Below, one piece after another: positions 6,902-15,967 of a stretch of DNA of 64,000 bases (its first letter is position 1; the number at the start of each line of letters is the position of its first letter). A model generated the notes under the pieces. It was not told the origin of the DNA and did not search any database. It saw only the letters and a program-made list of their open reading frames with translations. The stretch is from Microbispora sp. ZYX-F-249. Its GTDB lineage: Bacteria > Actinomycetota > Actinomycetes > Streptosporangiales > Streptosporangiaceae. Made by a program: the position numbers and the translations under genes. Where the stretch lies: contig NZ_JBDJAW010000020.1 in NCBI RefSeq assembly GCF_039649665.1, positions 1 to 64,000 on the forward strand, read 5' to 3'.

Positions 6902-8556
6902 CCACGTGGGATGAGGAGTTCGACCTCGTCATCGTCGGCAGCGGCGGTGGAGGCATGGCCGCCGCGCTGACCGCGCACGACAGCGGGCTGTCCTGCGTGG
7001 TGGTCGAGAAGGGCGGCAAGTTCGGCGGCAGCACCGGCATCTCCGGCGGCGGGATCTGGATCCCCAACAACCCGACCCTGCGGGCCAAGGGGCACGACGA
7101 CAGCCGCGAGTCGATCCGGCGCTACCTCGACCTGCTGACCGAGGGCCGCGTACCGGCCGCCCGGCTCGACGCGTACGTCGACAACGGCCCGGCCGCGATG
7201 GAGCTGCTCGAGAAGAGCAGGTGGATGCGGTTCTTCTGGGTGAAGGGCTACGCCGACTACCACCCCGAGTACGAGGGCGGCAGGCCGCTCGGCCGCTCGA
7301 TCGAGGCGCTGCCCTTCGACACCCGCAAGCTGGGCGAGGACGAGAAGTACCAGCGGCCGAACAACATGAAGGGCCCGCTCGGCCTGTGGATCACCGCCAA
7401 GGACTACCACGACCTGGCCATGGTCAAGCGCACCTGGCGCGGCCGCTGGGCCTCGGTCGTCGCGGCCTGGCGGGTGTCGTCCAACGTGATCCGCCGCAGG
7501 CACATGGCCACCGGCGGGCGCGCCCTGGTCGCCCGGCTGCGCATGGCGCTCAAGGACGCCGGAATCCCGCTGTGGCTGAAGACGCCGATGACCGACCTCG
7601 TCACCGACGCCGGGGGCGCGGTCACCGGCATCGTGGCCCAGCGTGAGGGACGGACGATCCGCGTCCGCGGCCGGTACGGCGTGCTGCTGGCGACCGGCGG
7701 TTTCGACCACAACACGCAGCTGCGGGAGAGGTACCTGCCCGAGGGTGCCCGGCCCGACTTCGGCATGGGCGCCAGGGAGAACACCGGCGACGGCATCCTC
7801 GCCGGCGAGCGCGTCGGCGCCGCCCTCGACCTGATGGACGACGCCTGGTGGATGCCGGCCGTACGGCATCCGGCCGGGGCGACGATCCCGCTGGTGTCCG
7901 AGCGGGCCATCCCGCCGTCGGTCATCGTCGCGCGGGACGGCCGGCGGTTCACCAACGAGTCCGCGCCGTACGTGAACTTCGTGCACGACCAGTTGGCCGG
8001 CGGCCACGTCCCGGCCTGGTTCGTGATGGACGCGAAGGCCCGGGCGCGTTACCCGTTCGCGCAGATCCTGCCGGGCATGCCGATCCCGCAGGAGTTCTAC
8101 GACCAGGGCATCGCGTTCCGGGCGGACACCCTCGCCGAGCTCGCGGACAAGATCGGCGTCCCGGCGGGCGCGCTGACCGAGACCGTGCAGCGCTTCAACG
8201 GGTTCGCCCGGATGGGCAAGGACGAGGACTTCGGCCGCGGCGACAGCGCCTACGACCGCTACTACGGCGACCCGACGTTGCAGAACCCCAACCTCGACGT
8301 GATCGACAAGGCGCCCTACTACGCGTTCCGGCTCGAGGTCGGCGACCTCGGCACCAAGGGCGGTCTGGTGTGCGACGAGCACGGCCGGGTGCTGCGGGCC
8401 GGCGGCGCGCCCATCGAGGGCCTGTACGCCACCGGCAACACCTCGGCGTCGGTGATGGGCAACGAGTACGCCGGGCCGGGGGCCACGATCGGCCCGTCCA
8501 TCGTCTTCGGCTACATCGCCGCGCGGCACGCCGCCGCGACACGGAGGGGGAGATGA
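6898..8556 (+). CDS. kstD: 3-ketosteroid delta-1-dehydrogenase (KstD-family flavoprotein)
   Basis: 552 aa from GTG 6898, overlapping the hsaD stop (GTGA) and so translationally coupled. It has an N-terminal FAD motif (DLVIVGSGGGGMAAAL), then GGKFGGSTGISGGGIWIPNN, typical of KstD/fumarate-reductase-like flavoproteins. The C-terminal NEYAGPGATIGPSIVFGYIA corresponds to the KstD segment carrying the active-site Tyr and a following Gly (Y-x-G-x-G). RRFTNESAPY is the other conserved block. It introduces the C1-C2 double bond that, together with 9-alpha-hydroxylation, opens ring B. It is the middle gene of hsaD-kstD-kshB; two more FAD enzymes of this superfamily lie at 24527 and 38838. Confidence 0.88.
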   Translation: MTTWDEEFDLVIVGSGGGGMAAALTAHDSGLSCVVVEKGGKFGGSTGISGGGIWIPNNPTLRAKGHDDSRESIRRYLDLLTEGRVPAARLDAYVDNGPAAMELLEKSRWMRFFWVKGYADYHPEYEGGRPLGRSIEALPFDTRKLGEDEKYQRPNNMKGPLGLWITAKDYHDLAMVKRTWRGRWASVVAAWRVSSNVIRRRHMATGGRALVARLRMALKDAGIPLWLKTPMTDLVTDAGGAVTGIVAQREGRTIRVRGRYGVLLATGGFDHNTQLRERYLPEGARPDFGMGARENTGDGILAGERVGAALDLMDDAWWMPAVRHPAGATIPLVSERAIPPSVIVARDGRRFTNESAPYVNFVHDQLAGGHVPAWFVMDAKARARYPFAQILPGMPIPQEFYDQGIAFRADTLAELADKIGVPAGALTETVQRFNGFARMGKDEDFGRGDSAYDRYYGDPTLQNPNLDVIDKAPYYAFRLEVGDLGTKGGLVCDEHGRVLRAGGAPIEGLYATGNTSASVMGNEYAGPGATIGPSIVFGYIAARHAAATRRGR

Positions 8557-9587
8557 CGCAGGGGGGAGCGCTCAAGGTCCGGGTGGTCGAGGTGGTCGAG
8601 GAGACCGCCGACGCGCACTCGCTGGTCCTCGAGCCCGCGGAGGGGGACCCGTCCAAGTTCTCGTACAAGCCGGGGCAGTTCCTGACGATCCGGGTGCCGA
8701 CCACCCGGCCGGAGGGCGCCGCACGCTGCTACTCGCTGAGCAGCTCGCCGCTGTGCGACGACAAGCTCAAGGTGACGGTGAAGCGCACCCGGGGCGGCTA
8801 CGGCTCGAACTGGATCTGCGACAACGTCACCGAGGGCGACGTGCTGGAGGTGCTGCGGCCGTCGGGGCTGTTCACCCCCGCGTCGCTGGACGAGGACCTG
8901 CTGCTGCTGGCGGGCGGCAGCGGCGTCACCCCGGTGATGTCGATCCTCAAGTCGTGCCTGCGCGCCGGGACCGGCTCGGTCGTGCTCGTCTACGCCAACC
9001 GGGACGAGAACTCGGTGATCTTCCGGGACGAGCTGGTCGCGCTGGCCGCCGGGTACGGCGAGCGGCTGACGGTGATCCACTGGCTGGAGTCCGTGCAGGG
9101 CCTGCCCACTGCGGCGGGCCTGGCCGCCCTGACCCGGCCGTACGCCGGGCGGGAGGCGTTCGTCTGCGGGCCAGGGCCGTTCATGGATATGGCCGTCGAC
9201 GTGCTGACCCGGCACGGCGCGCCGCCCGAGCGCGTGCACGTGGAGAGGTTCGAGTCGCTGGCCGGCGACCCGTTCGCGGAGACCGAGGTGGTGCTCGACG
9301 CGGCGGGTCCCGTCAGCACCGTCGAGGTCGAGCTCGACGGCGAGACGAGGACCCTCACCTGGCCGCGCGGCAACAAGCTGCTCGACGTGCTGCTCGAGGC
9401 CGGCCTCGACGCGCCGTTCTCCTGCCGTGAGGGCTCGTGCAGCGCGTGCGCGTGCGTGCTGCTGGAGGGCGAGGTCGAGCTGGAGCACAACACCGTGCTC
9501 GACAAGCAGGACCTCGCCGACGGCCTGATCCTGGGCTGCCAGGCGATCCCGCTCAGCGACCGGCTCAAGATCACCTACGACGCCTGA
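8553..9587 (+). CDS. kshB: KshB-type reductase of 3-ketosteroid 9-alpha-hydroxylase
   Basis: 344 aa, three domains: FAD-binding (RCYSLSS, 58-64), NAD-binding (LLLLAGGSGVTPVMS, about 116-130) and a C-terminal plant-type [2Fe-2S] ferredoxin with Cys291, Cys296, Cys299 and Cys329. The order FNR-like then ferredoxin is that of KshB and phenylacetyl-CoA-type reductases. It should pass electrons from NAD(P)H to the Rieske oxygenase KshA (35079), which is encoded far away in this window. The start overlaps the kstD stop (ATGA), giving tight co-expression. Confidence in the role comes from the KstD and Hsa neighbours; sequence alone would also allow another ring-oxygenase reductase. Confidence 0.85.
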   Translation: MTQGGALKVRVVEVVEETADAHSLVLEPAEGDPSKFSYKPGQFLTIRVPTTRPEGAARCYSLSSSPLCDDKLKVTVKRTRGGYGSNWICDNVTEGDVLEVLRPSGLFTPASLDEDLLLLAGGSGVTPVMSILKSCLRAGTGSVVLVYANRDENSVIFRDELVALAAGYGERLTVIHWLESVQGLPTAAGLAALTRPYAGREAFVCGPGPFMDMAVDVLTRHGAPPERVHVERFESLAGDPFAETEVVLDAAGPVSTVEVELDGETRTLTWPRGNKLLDVLLEAGLDAPFSCREGSCSACACVLLEGEVELEHNTVLDKQDLADGLILGCQAIPLSDRLKITYDA

Positions 9588-9608
9588 CCTCGCACGGAGC
9601 GGCTCCGC

Positions 9609-9623
9609 TCCCACTCACCGGGA
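9609..9623. promoter_or_regulatory. Shared 15-bp palindrome, site 3 (hsaE operon promoter)
   Basis: TCCCACTCACCGGGA, right arm perfect. It ends 31 bp before GACCCT (9654-9659, -10 candidate) and 67 bp before the hsaE ATG. It lies in the 103-bp gap after kshB, so the lower half of the cluster probably has its own promoter. Confidence 0.65.
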
Positions 9624-9690
9624 GAGGCGCGGGCGGGGCGGCGGCCGTGACGCGACCCTTTGACCATCAGCAGGACACGAGGAGGACCCG

Positions 9691-10494
9691 ATGCTGGACG
9701 AGGCGCTGCGGGCGGAGGCGGCCGGGCGGCTGCGGGCCGCCGAGCGGGACCGCTCGCCGATCGAGCCGCTGACCGACGCCTACCCCGGCATCGACGTGGT
9801 GGACGCCTACGAGATCCAGCTCGCCAACATCCGGCGGCGCCTGGCGGCCGGGGCCCGGGTGTACGGGCACAAGGTGGGCCTGTCCTCCCCGGTCATGCAG
9901 CGGATGATGGGCGTGGACGAGCCCGACTACGGCCACCTGCTCGACGACATGGTGCTGGCGCAGGACGAGCCGATCGAGGCCGCGCGCTACTGCTACCCCC
10001 GGATCGAGGTCGAGATCGGGTACGTGCTCGGGGCGAGCCTGCCCGGCGAGGGCTGCACCGAGGAGGACGTGCTCGCCGCGACCGAGTACGTCGTGCCGAG
10101 CATCGAGCTCATCGACAGCCGCATCACGGACTGGCGGATCCGCCTGGCCGACACGATCGCCGACAACGCGTCCTCGGCCGGGGTGATCCTCGGCGACGCC
10201 AGGGTGAGCCCGAAGGGCCTCGATCTGGCCGACATCGAGGCCGTGCTCTACAACGGAACCGGCCCCTTTGACGACACCACCGAGGTCACCCGGGGCAACA
10301 CGAGCGCGGTGCTGGGGAACCCCACCACCGCCGTGGCCTGGCTGGCCAGGAAGGTCGCCTCGTTCGGGGTCAAGCTCGAGGCCGGGCACGTCATCCTCCC
10401 CGGGTCCTGCACCAAAGCCGTCGACGTACGCCCCGGCGGCGTCTTCCGCGCCGAGTTCGCCGGGCTCGGCTCCGTCACCGCTCGATTCGAATAA
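9691..10494 (+). CDS. hsaE: 2-hydroxypenta/hexadienoate hydratase (HsaE/MhpD family)
   Basis: 267 aa, the family's usual length. Family blocks are [37 protein letters not shown], the acidic metal-site region [13 protein letters not shown] (about 107-119), and the C-terminal [19 protein letters not shown]. It hydrates the dienoate released by HsaD to a 4-hydroxy-2-oxoacid. ATG at 9691 has AGGAGG 8-13 bases upstream. It is the first of four tightly spaced genes (hsaE-hsaG-hsaF-hsaA-like). A 14-bp direct repeat spans its 3' end. Confidence 0.9.
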
Positions 10495-10509
10495 GACCGC
10501 TCGATTCGA
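10477..10509 (+). repeat. 14-bp direct repeat across the hsaE stop codon
   Basis: ACCGCTCGATTCGA occurs at 10477-10490 and again at 10496-10509, separated by ATAAG. The hsaE TAA stop lies between the copies. It looks like a small tandem duplication rather than a site. Confidence 0.6.
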
Positions 10510-10531
10510 CAATCCGGATAAGAGGACTTCC

Positions 10532-11425
10532 ATGAGTAAGGCGACCGCCGCGATCGTCGGCTCGGGCAACATCGGGACCGACCTGATGTACAAGCTGCTG
10601 CGCTCGGCGCACATCGAGCCGCGCTGGATGATCGGTGTGGACCCCGGCAGCCCGGGCCTCAAGCGGGCCGCCGACCATGGCCTGATCACCTCGGCCGACG
10701 GCGTGGACTGGCTCCTCGGCCGGGACGAGCGGCCCGACATCGTCTTCGAGGCGACCTCGGCGTACGTGCACAGGGAGAACGCGCCCAAGTACCGCGAGCT
10801 GGGCATCCAGGCCGTCGACCTGACGCCGGCCGCGCTCGGCCCGGCGGTGGTGCCCGCGGTCAACCTCGGCGCTCACCTCGACGCCCCCAACGTCAGCCTG
10901 ATCACCTGCGGCGGCCAGGCGACGATCCCGATCGTGCACGCGGTCTCGCGGGTCACCGAGGTGGCGTACGCGGAGATCGTGGCCAGCGTGGCCTCTCCGT
11001 CGGCGGGTCCCGGCACCCGCGCCAACATCGACGAGTTCACCAAGACGACCGCGCGCGGCATCGAGACGATCGGCGGCGCCAGGCGGGGCAAGGCCATCAT
11101 CATCCTCAACCCTGCCGAGCCGCCGATGCTCATGCAGGACACGATCTTCTGCTCGATCCCCGTCGACGCCGACCGGGACGCGATCGCGGCCTCGATCGAA
11201 GAGGTCGCCGCCGACGTCGCCTCCTATGTGCCCGGTTACCGGCTGCGGACCGAGCCCCAGTTCGACGACCCGACGGCGGTCAGCGGCGGGCTCGCCCGCG
11301 TCGCCGTGTTCGTCGAGGTCGAGGGCGCGGGCGACTTCCTGCCGCCCTACTCCGGCAACCTCGACATCATGACGGCCGCCGCCACCAAGGTCGGCGAGGG
11401 CTTCGCGCAGCGCATCCACCCGTAA
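10532..11425 (+). CDS. hsaG: Acylating aldehyde dehydrogenase (HsaG/MhpF family)
   Basis: 297 aa. NAD-binding N-terminus ([20 protein letters not shown]), catalytic Cys126 in [15 protein letters not shown], and the C-terminal [16 protein letters not shown] end typical of the acetaldehyde dehydrogenase that pairs with the DmpG/HsaF aldolase. It converts the aldehyde channelled from HsaF (propanal in steroid catabolism, acetaldehyde in aromatic pathways) to acyl-CoA. It lies 37 bp after hsaE and 12 bp before hsaF, matching the family's complex. The steroid rather than aromatic assignment rests on the neighbouring kstD and kshB. Confidence 0.92.
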
Positions 11426-11437
11426 GGAGACCGACCC

Positions 11438-12460
11438 ATGCCCTACAGCGCCGACCTCGACATCAGGGTCACCGACTCGTGCCTGCGGGACGGCTCGCAC
11501 GCCAAGCAGCACCAGTTCACCGTCGAGCACGTACGGTCCATCGTCGCCGCGCTGGACGAGGCGGGCGTGCCGGTCATCGAGGTGACGCACGGCGACGGCC
11601 TCGGCGGCTCGTCGTTCAACTACGGGTTCAGCCACACGCCCGAGCAGGAGCTCATCAAGGCCGCGGTCGCCACGGCCAGGCGCGCGAAGATCGCGTTCCT
11701 GATGCTGCCCGGCGTCGGCGTCAAGGACGACATCCGCGAAGCCGCCGACAACGGCGCGAGCATCTGCAGGATCGCCACCCACTGCACCGAGGCCGACGTC
11801 TCGATCCAGCACTTCGGGCTGGCCAGGGAGCTCGGCCTGGAGACGGTCGGGTTCCTGATGATGTCGCACAGCCAGCCGCCGGAGGTCCTGGCCGAGCAGG
11901 CCCGGATCATGGCCGACGCCGGCTGCCAGTGCGTCTACGTCGTCGACTCGGCCGGGGCACTGATCATGGAGCAGACGAGCGACCGGATCGCCGCGCTCGT
12001 GGCCGAGCTGGGGGACGACGCCCAGGTCGGCTTCCACGGCCACGAGAACCTCGGGCTCGGGGTGGCCAACTCGATCCTCGCCGTACGGGCCGGGGCCAAG
12101 CAGATCGACGGCTCGGTGCGGCGGTTCGGCGCCGGCGCGGGCAACACGCCGCTGGAGGCCTTCGCCGCCGTCACCGACAAGCTCGGCATCCGCACCGGCA
12201 TCGACACCCTCAAGATCATCGACGCAGCCGAGGACGTGGTCCGCCCGATCATGGACGGCGAGTGCCTGCTCGACCGGCTGACCCTGACCATGGGCTACGC
12301 CGGGGTGTACTCCAGCTTCCTCAAGCACGCCGACCGTCAGGCGAGGAAGTACGGCGTGTCCGGCGCCGAGATCCTCATGGAGGCCGGGCGCCGCAAGCTC
12401 ATCGGCGGTCAGGAAGACCAGCTCATCGAAATCGCAGTCGCCCTCGCGGCGAAGAAGTGA
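11438..12460 (+). CDS. hsaF: 4-hydroxy-2-oxoacid aldolase (HsaF/DmpG family)
   Basis: 340 aa TIM-barrel aldolase. [15 protein letters not shown] carries the catalytic Arg17, metal Asp18 and His21. GFHGHENLG carries the metal ligands His200 and His202. A C-terminal DmpG communication domain follows (about 270-340). It cleaves the HsaE product to pyruvate plus an aldehyde that is passed through a tunnel to HsaG, encoded immediately upstream. It is followed after 8 bp by an HsaA-like monooxygenase gene. Confidence 0.92.
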
Positions 12461-12468
12461 GAACAGCC

Positions 12469-13653
12469 ATGGCCAACCCGGTACTCGAAGCGATCACCCA
12501 GCGCGCCGAGGAGATCAGCGCCCTCGGCCCCTCCAACGAGACCCTGTGCCGGCTGGACGACCAGGCCGCCAAGGTATTGCGCGAAGCGGGCGTCATCCGC
12601 ATGCTCCAGCCGAAGATCCACGGCGGATTCGAGTTCCACCCGCGCGACTACGCCGAGACGATCATGAAGCTGGCGAGCCTCGACGGCTCGACCGGCTGGG
12701 TCGCGGGCGTCGTGGGCGTGCACCCGTGGGAGATGGCCTTCGCCGACCCGCGCGTCCAGCAGGAGATCTGGGGCGAGAACCAGGACACCTGGATCGCCTC
12801 GCCGTACGCGCCGATGGGCATCGCCCGGCCGGTCGACGGCGGCTACGTCTTCAACGGCCGCTGGCAGTTCTCCTCGGGCACCGACCACTGCGACTGGATC
12901 TTCCTGGGCGGCATGCTCGGCGACGCCGAGGGCAAGATGGCCCAGCCGCCGGCCTCGCTGCACCTCATCCTGCCGCGGTCGGACTACGAGATCGTCGAGG
13001 ACTCCTGGAACGTCGTCGGCCTGCGCGGCACCGGCAGCAAGGACATCATCGTCAAGGACGCGTTCGTCCCCGACTACCGGACGATCCCGTACAACAAGGT
13101 CGTGGACGGCAGCCAGGCCAAGGAGGCCGGCCTGACCAACCCGCTCTACCACATGCCGTTCTCCGCGGCGTTCCCGCTCGGGATCACCGCCGCGGTCGTC
13201 GGCATCGCCGAGGGCGCGCTCGCGCACCACATGGCGTACCAGAGGAGCCGCGTGCAGATCACCGGCACCAGGATCAAGGACGACCCGTACGTCCTGTACG
13301 CGATCAGCGAGGCGGCCGCCGAGATCGCGGCGTCGCGCTCGGCGCTGCTCGACAACGCCTCGCGGATGTACGACATCGTGGCCTCCGGCCGCGAGGTGAC
13401 CTTCGACGAGCGGGCCGTGGGCCGCCGCACCCAGGTCCAGGCGGCCTGGCGCGCGGTGCGGGCGATGGACGAGATCGTGGCGCGGTCGGGCGGCAACGCG
13501 ATGCGCGTGGACAACCCGATCCAGCGTTTCTGGCGGGACGCGCACGTCGGGCTGGCCCACGCGATCCACGTGCCCGGCTCGGTCTTCCACGTCTCCGCGC
13601 TGACGCAGCTCGGCATCGAGCCGCCGCACGGCCCGATGCGCTCGATGATCTGA
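12469..13653 (+). CDS. HsaA-like flavin-dependent monooxygenase (acyl-CoA dehydrogenase fold), divergent paralogue
   Basis: 394 aa. It has the group D flavin monooxygenase pattern of HsaA: IRMLQPKIHGGFEFHPRDYA, DGSTGWVAGVVGVHPWEMAF, FSSGTDHCDWIFLGG, VGLRGTGSKDIIVKDAFVP and RFWRDAHVGLAHA. The equivalent gene at 36406 is closer to known HsaA (DHASW-like segment and matching C-terminus). This copy has DHCDW and ends LTQLGIEPPHGPMRSMI. It is last in the hsaE-G-F operon, 8 bp from hsaF. It probably hydroxylates a phenolic or related ring intermediate with flavin from HsaB; whether it acts on 3-HSA or another substrate is open. Confidence 0.8.
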   Translation: MANPVLEAITQRAEEISALGPSNETLCRLDDQAAKVLREAGVIRMLQPKIHGGFEFHPRDYAETIMKLASLDGSTGWVAGVVGVHPWEMAFADPRVQQEIWGENQDTWIASPYAPMGIARPVDGGYVFNGRWQFSSGTDHCDWIFLGGMLGDAEGKMAQPPASLHLILPRSDYEIVEDSWNVVGLRGTGSKDIIVKDAFVPDYRTIPYNKVVDGSQAKEAGLTNPLYHMPFSAAFPLGITAAVVGIAEGALAHHMAYQRSRVQITGTRIKDDPYVLYAISEAAAEIAASRSALLDNASRMYDIVASGREVTFDERAVGRRTQVQAAWRAVRAMDEIVARSGGNAMRVDNPIQRFWRDAHVGLAHAIHVPGSVFHVSALTQLGIEPPHGPMRSMI

Positions 13654-13688
13654 GAGTGCCGTTTCCCCGGCGAGGGCGCCGGAGGCCG

Positions 13689-15134
13689 TCAGGACTGGGC
13701 GAACATCTGGTCGTAGACGCCGGAGTGGCGGCGGCCGGCCATGAAGTCCAGGAACCGGCGGACGAACTCGCCACGGGTCAGCCGCTCGCCGGCGTCGCCG
13801 CCGCCCGGGTCCTGGTCGAAGGCCGTCCGGAAGAGAGCCCGGCACTCCCGGGCGTCGATGACCTGGTCGTCGTCCGTGTCGGTGACGTCGAACAGGACCT
13901 CGGCGATCCGGATGAGGGCGGAGCCGGCCATGGCGGCCGCCGCGGCGGCGTACTCGTCGCGGGTGATGCGTCCGTCGCCGTCGGTGTCCAGCTCTTTCTG
14001 CAGCTCGCGCCACCAGTCGGCGAAGGCGGCGAACAGGCGTTCCTCGTCCTGGGTGTCCAGGTCGAGCCGGGTGGCGATCTCCCGCGCCATCGCGGCGAGG
14101 TCGGGCCAGCCGAGGCGGCCGTCGCCGGTCTGGTCGAGCACCTCGGAGAAGAACCGCGAGGCGGAGCGCACCGCCGAGTCGCCGGCGGCCGCCGTCTCCT
14201 GACCGGGCGTGAGCAGGCGCAGCAGCGCCCCGGCTTTCGCCACGCCACGGCGTAGCCCCGCCAGCGCCTCGCCGCCGCGTTGGGGCGCGTAGCCCGGGTC
14301 GAGCATGGTCATGACCGTGTCCAGCCGTGTCCACGACTCGGGGAGCAGCCGGGTCGCGAGACTCGTGGACAGGCAGGTGGCCTGCATCAGCGTGCGCGTG
14401 CCCGGCACCTCGGCGACCCCCAGCCGTGCGCGGAGCGACTCGGGCAGCGACGCCACGATGATCGCGCTGGCCGTGGGCCCGGCGATCGCCCTGCCCGCCG
14501 CCCACACGGCCGGCTGATCGCGGAGCAGAGGGGGCGCGGGTACCTGCGCGAACAGGCGGTCGAGGATGACGTGGACCGCTTCGGTGTTCTCCAGTCGCTC
14601 CTCCACGACGGACGTGTAGTAGCGCCAGAACTCCCGCAATGTGGGCGGAAGCTTGCCGCCGTAGGGGTCCATCAGTGCGAGGAACGCCTGGAACTCGGCG
14701 TACAGCCGGTCCAGGGCGGGGCCGTCGAGGGACTCGCCGCTGAGCCGGCACATCGTGACCGAGGACTCGAACAGCGTCGCCACCACCCAGGCGCGTGCCT
14801 CGGGATCCGCGGCGTTGAACGGGCGGTTCTCGGCGTCGGCGCCGGTGATGCGGGCGTGCAGGCGGTTGAGCCGGGCCGCCTCCCGCTGCCGCACCCGGGG
14901 GTCGGGGTCGACCATCCGCTGCGCGCTGAGCACGGTGTTGCGCAGGCGCCGCCACGGGTGTGCGACGAAGGTCGAGTTGGTGATCAGCGCGGCGCCGATC
15001 TGCGGGTACGCGGCCTCCAGGACGATGGCCCGGCTCGCCACCAGCCCCCAGCGTGCCTGGTGGGTCAACCGGTGAAGCATCGATCCCGGGCCGAGCGGAT
15101 CGGCGTCGGTTCCGGCGGGTTCGGCGTGGCTCAT
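13689..15134 (-). CDS. DUF2236 (MpaB/latex-clearing-like) oxygenase fused to EF-hand calcium-binding domain
   Basis: 481 aa from ATG 15134, which overlaps the stop of the upstream prenyltransferase gene (ATGA); an ATG two codons earlier is possible. Residues about 15-270 match the DUF2236/MpaB-like oxygenase family: FVAHPWRRLRNTVLSAQRM, RLNRLHARITGADAENRPFN, DPEARAWVVATLFESSV. The C-terminal part holds calerythrin-like EF-hands: DQTGDGRLGWPDL, DTDGDGRITRDEY, DTDDDQVIDARE and a degenerate fourth loop ending RLTRGEFVRRF. The reaction is unknown. Coupling to a cis-prenyltransferase suggests an isoprenoid substrate (inference). Confidence 0.78.
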   Translation of the reverse strand: MSHAEPAGTDADPLGPGSMLHRLTHQARWGLVASRAIVLEAAYPQIGAALITNSTFVAHPWRRLRNTVLSAQRMVDPDPRVRQREAARLNRLHARITGADAENRPFNAADPEARAWVVATLFESSVTMCRLSGESLDGPALDRLYAEFQAFLALMDPYGGKLPPTLREFWRYYTSVVEERLENTEAVHVILDRLFAQVPAPPLLRDQPAVWAAGRAIAGPTASAIIVASLPESLRARLGVAEVPGTRTLMQATCLSTSLATRLLPESWTRLDTVMTMLDPGYAPQRGGEALAGLRRGVAKAGALLRLLTPGQETAAAGDSAVRSASRFFSEVLDQTGDGRLGWPDLAAMAREIATRLDLDTQDEERLFAAFADWWRELQKELDTDGDGRITRDEYAAAAAAMAGSALIRIAEVLFDVTDTDDDQVIDARECRALFRTAFDQDPGGGDAGERLTRGEFVRRFLDFMAGRRHSGVYDQMFAQS

Positions 15135-15967
15135 CGACATTCCTTTCCTGTCAGGGCCGGTGCCCGCACCCCGCCGAACCGGCGGTCGCGCCGCCGGTAG
15201 GTCTCCAGGCATTCCCAGAAGTGCCCGGCGCGGAAGTCCGGCCACAGCACCCGGGGGAAGACCCATTCGGCGTAGGCCACCTGCCACAGCATGAAGTTGG
15301 AGATCCGCTGCTCTCCGGAGGTGCGGATGACCAGGTCCACCTCCGGCATGTCCGGGTGGGGCAGACGCCGGGCGAAGCTCTCCTCGGTGACCTGCTCGGG
15401 CGGCACACCGTCGCGGATCAGCGACCGGGCGGCCTCCACGATGTCGCGGCGGCCCCCGTGGTCGAACGCCACGGTCAACGTCATCCGCCGGTTGTCGCGG
15501 GTCAGCGCCGTCAGATCGGCGATGTCACGGGCCAGCGCGGGCGGGATCCGCGGGTCGGTGACACCGAGGAACCGGCAGCGGATCCCGCGCATGTGCAGGG
15601 ACAAGGCGTGTTTGCGGATGGCGCGGCGAATCAGCCGGAGCAGGTCGTCGACCTCGGCGGCCGGGCGCCGCCAGTTCTCGGTGGAAAAGGCGTACAGGCT
15701 CAACCACCCGACGCCGGCCGTGTGGGCCGCCTCGATGACATCGATCACGGCGGCCTCCGCCGCCCGATGCCCCTCGACGCGGGACAGCGACCGCTGCGCG
15801 GCCCATCGGCCGTTCCCATCCATGACGCAGGCCACGTGATGAGGCACGCCTCTCACATCGCCCGCCGCGGGGAGGAGTACATGGTCACTTCCGTCGGTCG
15901 CCGACATCCCGGCCCTGCTTTCGGGGGAGGGGAGGAGAGTGATCTCTCCGGAGACGGACTCTTTCAC
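15131..15967 (-). CDS. cis-Prenyltransferase (UppS/Z-isoprenyl diphosphate synthase family)
   Basis: 278 aa from GTG 15967 (an ATG at 15907 is an alternative). The signatures are VACVMDGNGRWAAQR with the catalytic Asp (about residue 50), LYAFSTENWRRP, LTVAFDHGGRRDIV, and RTSGEQRISNFMLWQVAYAE. The enzyme condenses IPP onto an allylic diphosphate in cis configuration. The housekeeping copy normally sits elsewhere, and the exclusive pairing with a DUF2236-EF-hand gene suggests a specialised isoprenoid role rather than cell-wall undecaprenyl supply. A strong palindrome precedes it at 15981-16005. Confidence 0.85.
   Translation of the reverse strand: MKESVSGEITLLPSPESRAGMSATDGSDHVLLPAAGDVRGVPHHVACVMDGNGRWAAQRSLSRVEGHRAAEAAVIDVIEAAHTAGVGWLSLYAFSTENWRRPAAEVDDLLRLIRRAIRKHALSLHMRGIRCRFLGVTDPRIPPALARDIADLTALTRDNRRMTLTVAFDHGGRRDIVEAARSLIRDGVPPEQVTEESFARRLPHPDMPEVDLVIRTSGEQRISNFMLWQVAYAEWVFPRVLWPDFRAGHFWECLETYRRRDRRFGGVRAPALTGKECR

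Follow-up and report, generated by a model that had tools for sequence, protein, structure and literature searches.

The window analysed here, the whole stretch of 64,000 nucleotides from Microbispora sp. ZYX-F-249, carries a cis-prenyltransferase gene that runs directly into a gene joining an oxygenase domain to an EF-hand module, which raises the question of whether the second enzyme acts on the isoprenoid made by the first and what calcium would do there. An earlier note on this DNA had suggested that the fusion may be a calcium-sensing enzyme acting on the cis-isoprenoid of its partner. Pfam profiles and reading frames agree with the gene coordinates and domain calls of that note, both genes being on the minus strand, and the ATGA overlap that it had claimed is present. 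The features of the locus are as follows:

15131..15967, minus strand: cis-prenyltransferase gene (278 aa, intact), a Z-prenyl diphosphate synthase of PF01255
13689..15134, minus strand: gene of an MpaB/Lcp-type oxygenase fused to an EF-hand module (481 aa)
15131..15134, minus strand: ATGA, the 4-bp overlap of stop and start codons, with the prenyltransferase directly upstream of the fusion
15142..15148, minus strand: GGAAAGG, resembling a ribosome-binding site, within the prenyltransferase gene and 7 nt 5' of the fusion ATG
14379..15068, minus strand: aa 23-252 of the fusion, PF09995 MPAB_Lcp_cat catalytic domain, formerly DUF2236 (137.5 bits against a cut-off of 23)
14934..14948, minus strand: R63-x3-T67, invariant, counterpart of Lcp Arg164 and Thr168 on the distal haem side
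14856..14858, minus strand: H93, invariant, counterpart of the Lcp proximal haem ligand His198
13725..14177, minus strand: aa 320-470, EF-hand module with an SCP/calerythrin-like fold, from the fold match of the model
14100..14135, minus strand: EF loop 1, DQTGDGRLGWPD, aa 334-345 (D334, T336 and D345 in 36/36 members; D or N at 338)
13953..13988, minus strand: EF loop 2, DTDGDGRITRDE, aa 383-394, canonical (D383, D387 and E394 in 36/36; D385 in 35/36)
13845..13880, minus strand: EF loop 3, DTDDDQVIDARE, aa 419-430, with canonical ligands (D419 and E430 in 36/36; D or N at 421 and 423)

The longest prenyltransferase reading frame starts with GTG at 15967, an ATG at 15907 (codon 21) is also possible, and the conserved core of the protein extends from about codon 41 (15847). 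The ATGA overlap is likely to couple translation of the prenyltransferase to that of the fusion.

The full fusion was searched for in 297 genomes of the order, and was found in 49 of them, plus one decayed copy. Both genes were present in these 49 genomes, neither in 247, and both in decayed form in one Microbispora, and the prenyltransferase was never found alone. At a threshold of E <= 1e-85, the cognate prenyltransferase was confined to exactly the 49 fusion-bearing genomes, which represent 13 genera; the other matches of the fusion search (31-36% identity) were ordinary DUF2236 proteins. Fisher's exact test of this co-occurrence gave p = 1.4e-55, a statistic that ignores phylogeny and is blind to shared ancestry, so that the tight adjacency of the two genes is the better argument. 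A class-wide draw of 345 genomes, overlapping the sample of 297, held prenyltransferase and fusion in the same 13 genomes, and a fourteenth held a sister fusion only (~30% identity).

Scanning GTDB genomes gave 256 stretches encoding relatives, the best 80 of which were used for locus counts. The prenyltransferase lies immediately upstream of the fusion in all 80 named loci of this best-scoring part, where the 4-bp overlap is possible in 66, and the same adjacency was seen in 43/43 loci of a first set, which places the arrangement far beyond chance. The hosts include Microbispora, Microtetraspora, Nonomuraea, Actinomadura, Actinoallomurus, Sphaerisporangium, Streptosporangium, Actinacidiphila, and many Streptomyces, and the cassette also occurs on Streptomyces plasmids amid unrelated surroundings. 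Conservation of the pair, on which the earlier note had made its idea depend, was therefore borne out. Among 70 non-redundant loci, the protein distances of the two partners correlate (r = 0.88, Mantel p = 0.001), as expected from co-inheritance but equally from shared ancestry. The dN/dS values of the catalytic domain, the EF module, and the prenyltransferase are similar (~0.14-0.38), indicating that every part is under purifying selection.

The two genes are also lost together. At the syntenic place in another Microbispora genome (G070; L160:5502-7040), both cassette genes are broken: the prenyltransferase lacks approximately residues 76-168, including the FSTENW motif, and carries a frameshift; in the fusion, an internal stretch between approximately residues 164 and 293 is deleted, and a frameshift follows further on. 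This wreck is a natural example of joint loss. No third conserved partner emerged when flanking reading frames were clustered, the commonest flanking family occurring in 9/80 loci; the cassette is thus a two-gene unit in changing surroundings, and a larger biosynthetic cluster was rejected because no further gene family recurs around the pair. A defence system was rejected as well, as the PADLOC library gave no match. Since the overlap is conserved, the co-occurrence complete, and the decay joint, and since no other neighbour is conserved, functional coupling of the two genes is almost certain.

In the window, positions 10268-13653 of the plus strand hold genes resembling HsaG (acetaldehyde dehydrogenase), HsaF (4-hydroxy-2-oxovalerate aldolase, DmpG_comm), and HsaA, the last scoring 382.7 bits against a cut-off of 450. 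They belong to a set of steroid-degradation genes on the strand opposite to the cassette. The stretch corresponding to 8250-13686 is absent beside the cassette in G070.

The prenyltransferase belongs to the cis-prenyltransferases (PF01255, UppS fold) by profile score (241.7 bits against a cut-off of 27), fold, and catalytic residues. Its best structural match is the dodecaprenyl diphosphate synthase of T. fusca (7cpn; Z 29.7, 50% identity), the family-conserved residues D50, N52, R54, H67, N98, W99, R101, R215, R221, S223, and E234 are present, and PRENYLTRANSFERASE carries the complete set of chain-elongation residues. Paired enzymes are marked by an invariant DHGGR, which replaces the NYGGR of housekeeping UppS, and by a four-residue deletion. 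In the tree they group together as a single clade (support 98/90), distinct from the two housekeeping ones, and the enzyme of the window falls below the PRK14829 equivalog cut-off (268 versus 372 bits). Being in a separate clade and found only with the oxygenase, the enzyme is not a housekeeping UppS/decaprenyl diphosphate synthase; Microbispora genomes hold three prenyltransferase copies with the cassette and two without, and the paired enzyme is a dedicated one, extra to the two housekeeping copies. The chain-length site, YAFSTENW, keeps its small Ala. A small residue at this site argues against a short-chain enzyme, and the product is probably of medium to long chain, with no particular length claimed.

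The catalytic domain of the fusion belongs to the PF09995 haem oxygenases by profile score and by the Arg/Thr/His residues of the haem site. According to a previous study of LcpK30, haem is ligated on the proximal side by His198, and on the distal side Arg164 and Thr168 are required for activity, their mutants retaining 0 and 2% (PMC5522427). R63, T67, and H93 of the fusion, whose equivalence to Lcp R164, T168, and H198 follows from order, spacing, and fold and not from direct residue alignment, do not vary among 36/36 aligned members, and are shared by the one further DUF2236 protein that the genome encodes. The haem His and Arg whose absence would have spoken against the earlier note are therefore in place. 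The second DUF2236 protein of the genome (G000:C23:39950-40642, L001) scores 227.8 bits against PF09995.

In the AlphaFold2 model of the fusion (mean pLDDT 77), aa 11-361 match trans-anethole oxygenase (8s1j) with Z 18.2, and aa 8-358 match Lcp (5o1l) with Z 15.4; the Lcp structure 5o1m gives Z 14.6. Neither protein was reached by sequence-profile searches of the PDB; fold comparison alone did so. Members of the PF09995 family cleave alkene bonds, including isoprenoid ones, as reported for Lcp (PMC5522427) and for MpaB and Nro1 (PMC12724181), and the PF09995 domain of the fusion is very probably a haem oxygenase. The 'MpaB' of daptide RiPPs is a different protein of the same name (PMC10036551).

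Identity as an Lcp was rejected. The N-terminus of the fusion (MSHAEPAGTDADPLGPGS...) is without a hydrophobic signal segment, the top hydropathy windows being at aa 397 and 210; as far as hydropathy tells, the secretion signal of Lcp is absent, and the enzyme is probably cytosolic, unlike Lcp. Lys167, the distal haem ligand of Lcp in the closed state, is 59% conserved among Lcps (PMC5522427) and is replaced by Asn66 in 36/36 members of the fusion family. The link to rubber cleavage drawn by the earlier note is weakened by both of these points and by trans-anethole oxygenase, not Lcp, being the closest solved structure.

EF-hand families match the fusion at aa 332-398 (PF13499, 36.1 bits against a cut-off of 30), with weaker matches beyond. 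Position 12 of the loop is identical in 36/36 members for all three EF loops listed above, and the fourth loop is degenerate across the family (36 aligned members). The description in the earlier note of a four-EF-hand module therefore holds for the fold but not for the predicted calcium sites, since three loops keep their ligands. The modelled module resembles several proteins equally well (3akb, Z 13.4; JHDK-L2, 13.2; calexcitin, 12.8; calerythrin 1nya, 12.7, all tied), and its membership in the SCP/calerythrin-like EF-hand proteins follows from the PF13499 score, the fold, and the three ligand-bearing loops. Weak NCBIfam matches to XopAW and lanmodulin were discarded, being far below cut-off and confined to the EF-hands. 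The module also scores nearly equally against SCP relatives with hydrophobic ligands (juvenile hormone diol kinase, obelin, okadaic acid binding protein) and against calcium buffers. Since several SCP-like proteins, such as photoproteins and juvenile hormone diol kinase, bind hydrophobic ligands, a role in lipid handling is possible, and by analogy the EF-hand module might hold an isoprenoid.

Joint gain and loss of the two genes suggests that they probably serve a two-enzyme, calcium-linked isoprenoid pathway of soil actinomycetes. The pair would be a self-contained, co-translated cassette, in which the dedicated cis-prenyltransferase would convert isopentenyl diphosphate and an allylic starter into a Z-prenyl diphosphate; the haem b domain would then oxidatively cleave, or otherwise oxygenate, a C=C bond in this chain or in a simple derivative of it, leaving a shorter isoprenoid with a carbonyl end; and the C-terminal module would bind Ca2+ at up to three sites and adjust how active or stable the oxygenase is, or how it docks to membranes. 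Confidence in the parts of this scheme is a matter of judgement, not of computation. The substrate of the oxygenase rather probably derives from the product of the partner; set against this, PF09995-type enzymes also accept non-isoprenoid alkenes (trans-anethole, nitrile rubber), and the distal Lys of Lcp is replaced. Calcium is, by a modest preference, taken to regulate the enzyme rather than only to stabilise it, although a purely structural Ca2+ would be compatible with the same loops. The complete pathway of Z-prenyl diphosphate synthesis, oxidative C=C cleavage, and calcium tuning, the most likely of the readings considered, we regard as evenly balanced between right and wrong. Since the cassette has neither a phosphatase nor a terpene cyclase or transporter linked to it, the pathway would need unlinked genes or use the diphosphate directly.

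Sister MpaB/EF-hand fusions with 30-40% identity show that the fusion architecture alone does not imply a Z-isoprenoid substrate, since they lack a nearby prenyltransferase (L036:9998-11407, L203:7001-8182, L204:6971-8371, and L202, the flank of which was covered for only ~1.5 kb). They are located on plasmids of Streptomyces and Embleya and in one genome of the class, and the L204 copy lies near a ketosynthase gene.

Two rival explanations are serious, one concerning the acceptor of the prenyl group and the other a regulatory subunit. The prenyltransferase could prenylate an acceptor other than isopentenyl diphosphate (a small molecule, a lipid, or a protein), with the oxygenase trimming or oxidising the attached chain, as fungal MpaB cleaves the farnesyl side chain of an aromatic acceptor, a phthalide (PMC12724181). 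Both C- and O-prenylation have been described for one cis-prenyltransferase (PMC8131916), and the changed D-H-G-G-R motif and the deletion, by which the paired enzymes differ from UppS, would suit such a shift. However, the ordinary elongation residues are all kept, the closest solved relative makes a C60 chain, and no acceptor-making gene is linked to the cassette, so that we consider this reading unlikely.

Somewhat less likely still, the fusion could be a haem- and calcium-responsive regulator, a partner subunit that tunes the chain length or activity of the prenyltransferase instead of acting on its product. Strict pairing and overlap fit a two-protein complex, and eukaryotic cis-prenyltransferases use a regulatory partner subunit. 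The globin fold of Lcp, moreover, resembles that of globin-coupled sensors (PMC5522427). The invariant distal Arg and Thr, needed for catalysis in Lcp (PMC5522427), nevertheless exceed what a mere haem holder would need.

A further reading, which we consider improbable, is a Ca2+-triggered oxygenase that breaks lipids of the polyprenyl carrier pool (undecaprenyl-type), in growth arrest or competition, with the additional prenyltransferase replacing or sparing these lipids. In its favour, the cassette is patchily distributed and carried on plasmids, much like accessory fitness or conflict genes, and an oxygenase that is apparently cytosolic would encounter polyprenyl carriers, but the defence library gave no match and both genes decay together, with neither retained. 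That the oxygenase is part of the nearby steroid-degradation set, with the prenyltransferase adjacent by accident, has practically no chance of being right, since the HsaA-, HsaF-, and HsaG-like genes, which prompt the idea, lie on the other strand, are missing at the syntenic place in G070, and are no conserved partner, no flanking family recurs outside close relatives, and 80/80 conserved pairs in unrelated surroundings refute it as a general explanation.

The two-step pathway, if true, would let calcium directly control an output of bacterial isoprenoid metabolism. Each domain is already known, but no relevant description of the pair, or of DUF2236 joined to EF-hands, was found in the literature searched, outside which most subscription journals lie, and the joined architecture and the obligate pair are thus new with respect to the papers searched. 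The genes are at present annotated merely as 'uppS' and 'oxygenase MpaB family protein', and suggest that many Streptomyces and Streptosporangiaceae make an isoprenoid that has gone unrecognised. We tentatively extend this to a widespread pathway in filamentous actinomycetes, which could yield Z-prenyl metabolites of a new class, apo-polyprenoids formed by oxidative cleavage, through a Ca2+-switched haem oxygenase. Bacterial EF-hand proteins are common, yet few have a known output; an EF-hand module fused to a predicted enzyme and tied to a biosynthetic partner makes the role of calcium in an actinomycete testable with two genes. The cassette may also yield soluble alkene-cleaving haem enzymes under calcium control.

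Compared with known systems, the fusion shares its catalytic fold with the trans-anethole oxygenase of Stenotrophomonas maltophilia (8s1j; 256 residues, Z 18.2, rmsd 3.6), whose name indicates an alkene-oxidising enzyme, but the identity is 9% and the solved 8s1j chain is without an EF-hand module. We know of no prenyltransferase partner of trans-anethole oxygenase. LcpK30 (5o1l/5o1m) shares the PF09995 family, the fold, and the counterparts of Arg164, Thr168, and His198 with the fusion, from which it differs in being extracellular, lacking an EF-hand module, and acting on polymeric rubber (PMC5522427). MpaB and the bacterial oxygenases of its family, Nro1 among them, use haem b and cleave C=C bonds, MpaB doing so on a prenyl chain, and neither an EF-hand fusion nor a prenyltransferase operon is described for them in PMC12724181. 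The EF-hand module is alike in fold to the calcium-binding protein of S. coelicolor (3aka/3akb) and to calerythrin (1nya) at ~20% identity; these are free-standing proteins, whereas here the module is fused to an oxygenase and its fourth loop is degenerate. Finally, the prenyltransferase resembles the long-chain cis-prenyl diphosphate synthases of T. fusca (7cpn) and M. tuberculosis (Rv2361c) in fold and active site (46-50% identity), but differs from both in its separate clade, in DHGGR in place of NYGGR, and in being an accessory third copy linked to an oxygenase.
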